From: an uncultured Ulvibacter sp.
GTDB taxonomy: Bacteria; Bacteroidota; Bacteroidia; Flavobacteriales; Flavobacteriaceae
Direction of reading: 5' to 3'
Assembly (NCBI GenBank): GCA_938041335.1
Contig: CALIAF010000036.1
Location: forward strand, 1 to 64,000
Length of the DNA stretch: 64,000 bases
In this document: positions 6,831-16,907 of the stretch, piece by piece
How the letters are laid out: the number at the start of each line of letters is the position of its first letter
Position numbering within the stretch: position 1 is the stretch's first letter
Position numbers and translations under genes: made by a program
Notes under the pieces: generated by a model
What the model saw: only the letters and a program-made list of their open reading frames with translations
The model's database searches: none
Told to the model about the DNA's origin: nothing

Positions 6831-6939
6831 AAAACAAAAAAAGCTCATTCGCCAAGGGCGAATAAAGCTTCTCATCGGTCTTCCCGATAGCTATCGGGAC
6901 TTAATCCACGAGTTACATTTCTGTAACTCAACACAACTT
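6831..6939 (-). ncRNA. Structured RNA-like unit, copy 1 of a tandem pair
   Basis: Read on the minus strand, the unit has three ordered hairpins. The first is GAGTTACA-GAAA-TGTAACTC. The second is the palindrome TCCCGATAGCTATCGGGA (6882-6899). Then comes a single-stranded core AGACCGATGAGAAGCTT, and the third hairpin is an intrinsic-terminator shape, ATTCGCC-CTTG-GGCGAAT, followed by seven T. It shares core and order with a second unit 155 bp away, while both flanking stems differ in sequence but keep pairing. That covariation argues for a real RNA. It could belong to a catalogued flavobacterial motif such as Flavo-1, which I cannot confirm. No open reading frame is seen. Confidence 0.5.
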
Positions 6940-6986: not shown

Positions 6987-7090
6987 AAAACAAAAAAAGC
7001 CCATCCGTTTGGATAAGCTTCTCATCGGTCTTCCCGATAGCTATCGGGATTAAACCACAAGCCCTATTTCTAGGACTCAACACAACATTT
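6987..7090 (-). ncRNA. Structured RNA-like unit, copy 2 of a tandem pair
   Basis: Same architecture as the unit at 6831-6939. On the minus strand: stem AGTCCTA-GAAA-TAGGGCT with one U-G pair, the palindrome TCCCGATAGCTATCGGGA (7032-7049), the identical core AGACCGATGAGAAGCTT, and a 10-bp terminator-like stem AAGCTTATCC-AAAC-GGATGGGCTT with two G-U pairs followed by T7. Both stems differ in sequence from copy 1 yet still fold, which is compensatory change. It lies just downstream of the tRNA-Asp terminator and so could have its own promoter or be read through from the tRNA. Confidence 0.5.
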
Positions 7091-7118: not shown

Positions 7119-7126
7119 CTTTTTTG

Positions 7127-7200
7127 CGGTCTGGACGAGACTCGAACTCGCGACCCCCTGCGTGACAGGCAGGTATTCTAACCAACTGAACTACCAGACC
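7127..7200 (-). tRNA. tRNA-Asp (anticodon GTC)
   Basis: The minus strand folds as a standard tRNA of 74 nt before CCA. The acceptor GGTCTGG pairs with CCAGACC and the discriminator base is G. The anticodon loop CTGTCAC carries GTC, and the T arm is GTCGC-GAGTTCGAGT-CTCGTC-like with the TTCGA loop. The 3' CCA is not encoded (the next bases are CAA), so it must be added after transcription. The gene has its own promoter (7348-7377) and terminator (7092-7118). A broken copy of its 5' half lies between promoter and gene, at 7238-7287. Confidence 0.97.
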
Positions 7201-7237
7201 GTGCTTGATATTTTTGGACCTAAGCGCGTCCTTACTC

Positions 7238-7287
7238 TTCATCTGGTATTCTAATCATCCCGATTACTATCGGGAGAACTACCAGAC
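7238..7287 (-). pseudogene. tRNA-Asp 5' fragment carrying an inserted palindrome
   Basis: On the minus strand this reads GGTCTGGTAGTTC, then TCCCGATAGTAATCGGGA, then TGATTAGAATACC. The two outer pieces match bases 1-13 and the D-arm to anticodon-stem portion (TGGTTAGAATACC) of the intact tRNA-Asp next to it. Only the AGT between them is missing, and the 18-bp palindrome sits in its place. No anticodon or 3' half follows, so it is not a functional tRNA. It lies inside the predicted leader of the real tRNA-Asp. Confidence 0.85.
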
Positions 7288-7347
7288 CGTGCTACTATTT
7301 TAAAGACTTTACTAGCATGTCTTTGCAACCATTGCTGGAAGCGAGTG

Positions 7348-7377
7348 CAAATATAAAACTACCTATGATATCTACAA
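7348..7377 (-). promoter_or_regulatory. Promoter of tRNA-Asp
   Basis: On the minus strand TTG (7377-7375), a 19-bp spacer and TATATTTG (7355-7348) match the Bacteroidota consensus TTG-N17-23-TAnnTTTG. Transcription would start near 7340 and cross the tRNA fragment before the tRNA. Confidence 0.65.
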
Positions 7378-16826: not shown

Positions 16827-16907
16827 CAAGCCGAAAAACAGCGTATATAATAGTTTTTCGATAAAATTCAATTATAACCGAAGTCGAGTACTTCAAAAAT
16901 TAATGTT

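Follow-up and report, generated by a model that had tools for sequence, protein, structure and literature searches.

Truncated tRNA-Asp copy with a dispersed hairpin in place of D-loop residues in an uncultured Ulvibacter, and similar copies beside other tRNA genes of Bacteroidota

In a stretch of 64,000 nucleotides from an uncultured Ulvibacter sp. (referred to as the window), a dead 5' copy of tRNA-Asp was found upstream of the intact gene, in which the D-loop residues AGT were replaced by an 18-bp palindrome. This arrangement recurs across Bacteroidota beside many tRNA kinds. The evidence moderately favors, as the best explanation, a partial tandem duplication of the tRNA unit with replacement of the loop by a dispersed hairpin, recurrent in this phylum.

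Anatomy of the tRNA-Asp locus

The anatomy of the locus was read directly on the minus strand (Table 1). From the promoter, the leader is followed by GGTCTGGTAGTTC, TCCCGATAGTAATCGGGA, TGATTAGAATACC, the spacer, and intact tRNA-Asp. The 5' part of the intact gene consists of GGTCTGGTAGTTC, AGT, and TGGTTAGAATACC, and that of the dead copy of GGTCTGGTAGTTC, TCCCGATAGTAATCGGGA, and TGATTAGAATACC. Comparison with the intact gene thus confirmed the statement of a first-pass annotation that AGT of a tRNA-Asp 5' fragment had been replaced by an 18-bp palindrome. The fragment was also said to equal the 5' part of tRNA-Asp except for AGT; this held for the AGT exchange, while one further difference was found after the palindrome, where eight of nine bases match on resumption. 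The span assigned to it, 7238-7287, was a few bases off. TATATTTG is a putative -7 element; the promoter consensus of Bacteroidota is TAnnTTTG.

Table 1. Features of the tRNA-Asp region of the window, and one further RNA leader
Feature	Position	Strand	Basis
RNA-like element, second copy; the same 18-mer as in the first copy at 6882-6899, in the same loop	6835..6937	minus	alignment
RNA-like element, first copy; TCCCGATAGCTATCGGGA at 7032-7049 replacing the loop between GGTTT and AGACC	6991..7086	minus	alignment
Intact tRNA-Asp, anticodon GTC	7126..7200	minus	ARAGORN; Rfam RF00005, 67.9 bits
Direct repeat AGCACGGTCTGGTAGTTC, at the intact tRNA-Asp gene	7188..7205	minus	sequence comparison
Spacer between dead copy and intact tRNA-Asp, 44 bases	7201..7244	minus	sequence
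Dead 5' tRNA-Asp copy: nucleotides 1-13, hairpin, TGATTAGAATACC	7245..7288	minus	sequence, table of copies, collinear match
18-bp palindrome TCCCGATAGTAATCGGGA replacing D-loop AGT; 7-bp stem, 4-base loop	7258..7275	minus	sequence; predicted RNA fold
Direct repeat AGCACGGTCTGGTAGTTC, upstream copy	7276..7293	minus	sequence comparison
TATATTTG, likely promoter -7 element, common to same-genus genomes	7348..7355	minus	region alignment
S16-Flavobacteria ribosomal protein leader	16871..16904	plus	Rfam RF03138, 39.6 bits

An exact 18-bp direct repeat, AGCACGGTCTGGTAGTTC, is common to the dead copy and the gene, and consists of the end of the leader and tRNA bases 1-13. The end of the spacer (AAAAATATCAAGCAC) also resembles the end of the leader (TAAAATAGTAGCAC) by eye, as expected from tandem duplication. 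Insertion of a transposon or MITE, which would give a target duplication around an otherwise unrelated insert, was rejected because of this composition of the repeat and because the insert resumes as tRNA after the hairpin. In a collinear match with tRNA, the dead copy scored 23, in comparison with 13 or less at random positions. It is truncated and adjoins an intact gene of the same kind, as do the copies in all 28 rows of the table of D-loop copies described below, and was therefore classed as a tandem-duplicated tRNA pseudogene.

Clean relatives and the absence of hairpin-free copies

Ten genomes of the same genus were compared, and two of these (G009 and G010) gave no usable match. In all eight readable genomes (G001-G008), the leader was directly observed to run into one intact tRNA-Asp with no fragment. 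The state without the event is, therefore, the absence of the fragment and not a fragment with AGT; an empty site of the latter type, which had been proposed as a check, was not found in these eight genomes. The clean state probably preceded the event, although a copy removed cleanly by way of the 18-bp direct repeat could leave an identical pattern.

Three locus sets (tRNA-Asp of relatives, tRNA-Val of the genus of genome G420, and tRNA-Asp of the genus of locus L075) contained 92 tRNAs with 12 upstream 5' copies, and a hairpin replaces the D-loop or anticodon arm in 12/12. The hairpin was detected by script in 11 copies, and judged by eye in the other (L165), since the 2-base loop of its TCCGCCTCGGCGGA is below the limit of the script. 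No hairpin-free 5' tRNA copy was seen among the 92 tRNAs of the three sets, which were fetched with queries containing the hairpin copy and may favor such loci, although a hairpin-free copy would also match. No intermediate state of the event was seen, so we infer the order of events. Since a fragment with AGT was not found, all 12 copies carry the hairpin, and the arrangement recurs, tRNA copy and hairpin seem to arise, or survive, together. The earlier reading of the event thus stands for the replacement of D-loop residues by a genome-dispersed palindrome; its other part, a move of the palindrome into an existing fragment, is not supported by the eight fragment-free genomes and the 12 hairpin-bearing copies.

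Recurrence at tRNA-Asp and other tRNAs

Recurrence was observed directly by several searches. The junction sequence, used to scan a genome collection, matched at 11 loci. At nine of these, GGTCTGGTAGTTC is followed by TCCCGATAGTTATCGGGA or TCCCGATAGCTATCGGGA upstream of tRNA-Asp, with the intact tRNA present in seven and a contig edge reached in two; they come from records named Cyclobacteriaceae, Flavobacteriaceae, Aequorivita, Bacteroidales, and other Bacteroidetes. The remaining two (Cryobacterium) match the search string and are non-palindromic. The D-loop pattern (TAGYTC followed by the hairpin) occurs at 16 places in 12 of 395 genomes of the class, including the source genome (G000). All 15 places outside G000 are just 5' of an intact tRNA, which is of the same kind in 14 (the copy at L108 corresponds to the 5' end of another tRNA); L103 and L109 represent a single place, where two hairpin copies stand in tandem. 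Among 395 genomes of the order, the exact pattern was found in two, G000 (counted in both sets) and one other. A phage link was rejected, since the pattern had no match in viral_contigs.

The table of D-loop copies has 28 rows for 27 distinct places (L097 is the same as L154) and covers 10 tRNA kinds: tRNA-Asp, Val, Met, Arg, Thr, Asn, Trp, Gly, Leu, and Ala. Left out were L068 and L070 (cut), L108 (other tRNA), L138 (no intact tRNA on the contig), L075 and L109 (the same places as L184 and L103, respectively), and L156 and L165 (other hairpin sequence). In nearly all rows, the copy lacks three or four residues of the stretch from the D-stem to the conserved GG; the exceptions are L131, which loses six, and L074, which has two successive hairpins and a loss that is not assignable. 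AGT in the window is one case of this rule.

Other arms are also affected. Copies of tRNA-Asp (G022 and G047), tRNA-Met (G020 and contig C11 of G000), and tRNA-Leu (G022) have a hairpin in place of the anticodon arm or loop, and a tRNA-Cys copy of G023 has one in place of the T-loop. In G000:C17 (L007, around 1430-1655), a nearly full tRNA-Asn copy with hairpins in the D-loop and variable loop lies upstream of intact tRNA-Asn. In G000:C11, a GIY-YIG gene is directly followed by a 3' tRNA-Met copy in which TCCCGAAAGCTTTCGGGA takes the place of the anticodon loop.

Variation within two genera and GIY-YIG genes

In the G420 genus, all 40 genomes matched, and the tRNA-Val region was read in the first 30 loci (one without tRNA-Val). 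The leaders are clean or contain a D-loop hairpin copy, an anticodon-arm-replaced copy, or a plain leader hairpin. The D-loop hairpins are TCCCGATAGCTATCGGGA in two, TCCCGAAAGCTATCGGGA in one, and TCCGCCTCGGCGGA in one, and the hairpin in place of the anticodon arm is TCCCGAC...GTCGGGA. Across these loci, the position stays the same and the hairpin sequence varies. In G807 (L198), tRNA-Val 5' copies whose anticodon arm is replaced by a hairpin form a long tandem array; GIY-YIG genes and 3' copies come after it. Tandem tRNA-Met 3' copies with a small GIY-YIG gene were also noted at L094 (G000:C11, 230-800).

The copies could be scars of small GIY-YIG homing endonucleases with tRNA genes as their targets, if break repair amplified tRNA and nuclease gene in tandem, and the hairpin marked or blocked the cut site. 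In phage T6, the GIY-YIG homing endonuclease SegB is reported to cause tandem amplification of a tRNA-Tyr/segB segment (PMC13096335), similar to the tandem tRNA and GIY-YIG units in G807, G020, and G000:C11; however, hairpin-substituted loops are not mentioned in the passages of that paper, and the window locus differs in having no GIY-YIG gene within 3.3 kb around tRNA-Asp (L016). A GIY-YIG frame, intact or broken, is present in 5/6 loci with 3'-type hairpin copies, including the tRNA-Met array of G000:C11, but in only 3/27 loci with 5'-type copies, counts that compare the two types with each other. Furthermore, the intact tRNA would stay cuttable. As a general account, this is improbable; a GIY-YIG nuclease is possible as a trigger rather than the explanation.

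The L075 genus (L075 is named Aequorivita vitellina) comprises 28 genomes: the copy is present in two (G836 and G837), 23 are clean by direct reading, and three were not resolvable by script. The spacer of L184 is a second version of the leader, showing that leader and tRNA were duplicated. Between G836 and G837, identity is 18/18 for the hairpin, 13/13 for copy bases 1-13, and 11/13 for the next 13 bases, in comparison with 86/117 for the leader and 49/97 for the spacer; this contrast with spacer and leader (P 2e-5 and 0.006, respectively) is evidence for constraint on the hairpin. The two carriers have homologous spacers, yet are not sisters in a weakly supported tree, whose region includes non-orthologous flanks. 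From these sequences, the copy may be old in this genus and frequently lost by direct-repeat recombination.

This conservation, together with plain hairpins in the same leader in other species of the G420 genus, raises the alternative of a functional leader, in which the hairpin copy is kept by selection for processing, antitermination, or regulation of the downstream tRNA. Regions with the copy are also more stable than shuffles in predicted folding (z -3.5 and -3.8), and in 26/28 cases the prediction pairs the first seven bases of the copy with the intact tRNA's 3' strand, which could be a switch. However, the intact tRNA would suffer from such pairing, which is hardly reduced by the hairpin: the mean probability of the correct acceptor stem at predicted equilibrium was 0.11 with the hairpin and 0.03 with the native loop (Wilcoxon P 0.04 for correct folding and 0.05 for pairing of the copy). 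Because real RNAs fold co-transcriptionally, these predictions call for caution and are not a functional result. The sporadic distribution of the exact pattern in the class and order, and of the copy in the L075 genus, also argues against selection for function, which we consider an unlikely main explanation, if less so than the nuclease scar. With the same two values (0.11 and 0.03), the idea of an insulator, namely, that the hairpin prevents misfolding between copy and tRNA, was unsupported as the main cause. BoxA-like GTTCTTT motifs were seen by eye in some spacers, and are absent from that of the window.

Dispersal of the hairpin family and enrichment in tRNA copies

The hairpins form a family with outer arms TCCCGA/TCGGGA and a variable inside. 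TCCCGATN4ATCGGGA with up to two mismatches has five sites in the window, against 0.11 expected from shuffles; 21 sites in the source genome are exact, against none for a control pattern. The exact 18-mer of the window's dead copy (centre AGTA) occurs once among these 21, which counts against the best reading; near copies with one mismatch exist. No Rfam family reached the gathering score over the palindromes. A pattern search detected 65 sites in 15 of 59 genomes, G000 included, and 62 were retained after removal of an identical tandem copy and of two copies of a single repeat at contig ends. An enrichment in tRNA copies was directly observed: 13/62 sites are collinear in such copies with scores of 22 to 51, in comparison with 0/548 random positions, none scoring above 13 (Fisher P about 4e-14); the number of independent events is smaller, as a single tandem array contributes two of the 13. 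Although G000 is a draft of 63 contigs (96.87% complete, 2.25% contamination), chance resemblance or an assembly artefact is extremely improbable, since the same anatomy is present in unrelated genomes and at other tRNAs, and the tRNA-copy score was never reached at random positions.

At sites other than tRNA copies, the hairpin shows a weak preference for the loops of other hairpins (6/62 sites, against 2.9% of controls at score 8). General targeting of hairpin loops was rejected on this basis, and the claim about loops is kept for tRNA copies and the RNA-like element described below. The hairpin centre did not match the native D-loop in a consistent manner; AGCT centres, for example, stand over native AATT, AAT, or AAC.

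Other contexts were noted in G000. By eye, the hairpin is central in a second dispersed repeat like CCCTGAGCTTGTCGAAGGG at L008, L011, L125, and L126, replacing AGCTT or its reverse. At L003 (G000:C7, 1480-1540), it is mid-way in a longer perfect inverted repeat with TAATGTCATATTGAGCGC on either side. At L004 (G000:C11), two hairpins (1501 and 1706) have matching right flanks that by eye resemble the 3' ends of two similar reading frames, and are perhaps coding.

REP/BIME palindromes are short and dispersed in intergenic DNA, and in REP/RAYT systems they flank a Y1 tyrosine transposase gene. The dispersal of the hairpin in the genome and among the 59 genomes, together with two Y1_Tnp genes in G000, would similarly fit an independent mobile element, moved by a transposase (e.g., RAYT-type Y1) into a pre-existing tRNA fragment. 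However, neither Y1_Tnp locus holds a complete CCCGAT...ATCGGG hairpin (one contains one half motif), on which ground the RAYT link was rejected; a hairpin-free fragment was not seen among the 92 tRNAs, and other hairpin sequences occupy the same positions in the G420 genus. REP/RAYT systems have a GTAG-type tetranucleotide 5' of the hairpin. Such a tetranucleotide is present at the tRNA sites, because tRNAs often read TAG there, and is not evident by eye at the other listed sites. We judge transposition into an existing fragment to be quite unlikely, slightly less so than the nuclease scar and more so than the functional leader.

RNA-like element downstream of tRNA-Asp

An RNA-like element downstream of tRNA-Asp is in tandem in the window and conserved in relatives, in the order GTTGTGTTG, hairpin, GGTTT-loop-AGACC, ATGAGAAGC, hairpin, and T run. 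Its structure was read by eye; the RNAalifold consensus was poor on the mixed alignment, and no Rfam match to the element reached the gathering score. In relatives, the loop between GGTTT and AGACC is short, such as AGAAAT. TCCCGATAGCTATCGGGA is present at the same loop in three of 20 readable loci of the L075 genus, and absent in 17. The first stem differs wholesale between species.

Discussion

The sequences show partial tandem duplication, replacement of a loop by the dispersed hairpin family, and recurrence. According to the best explanation, a tandem duplication would have taken in the end of the leader and the 5' part of tRNA-Asp, so that a dead 5' copy came to lie downstream of the promoter and ahead of the intact gene; the D-loop of this copy would have been replaced by a short hairpin from the genome-dispersed family. 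The case would be one instance of a recurrent process in this phylum, by which redundant tRNA copies, and at least one RNA-like element, exchange loops for dispersed hairpins. A break or stalled fork in the tRNA gene might initiate template-switch repair, which would make the duplicate and capture the hairpin at the loop; alternatively, the hairpin might protect the duplicate from recombinational loss. A tentative and rather doubtful extension is a hairpin-swapping process of Bacteroidota, in which loops of RNA genes receive a minimal hairpin of selfish or module-like nature (TCCCGA...TCGGGA and relatives); a dedicated nuclease, or template switching at single-stranded loops, would carry out the exchange. 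Essential tRNAs would then tolerate the swap only in a simultaneously made copy, and structured RNAs would change stems by replacement of whole hairpins.

Several known systems are partly similar. The hairpins resemble REP/BIME as short dispersed intergenic palindromes, but are not beside the two Y1_Tnp genes, and several hairpin sequences share the same tRNA positions. Rickettsia palindromic elements, of about 100-150 bp, are likewise palindromic units within genes, whereas those described here measure 18 bp and occupy redundant copies of tRNA genes. Mitochondrial double-hairpin elements, GC clusters, and palindromic repeats of fungi, algae, and yeast are also tiny and thought to be mobile, and target loops of RNA genes; the present case differs in its location on a bacterial chromosome and its coupling to partial tRNA duplication. 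tRNA pseudogenes in mitochondria arise from tandem duplication and random loss, and similarly give a dead partial copy beside an intact gene, but here the loop is exactly replaced by a dispersed hairpin, repeatedly. Short mobile palindromes and tRNA duplicates are already known, and their coupling at tRNA loops looks new; no published description of hairpin-replaced tRNA copies was found in the open-licence literature, and they may be described elsewhere.

The spread of short dispersed palindromes is an open question, which the proposed coupling, if true, would tie to tRNA gene duplication, and these loci would offer readable before-and-after sites for the spread of an 18-bp palindrome. Since the coordinates of tRNA arms are known, each event would be exactly mappable, and the G420 and L075 genera, with filled and empty loci, would open the process to tests in evolution experiments or in surveys of strains.
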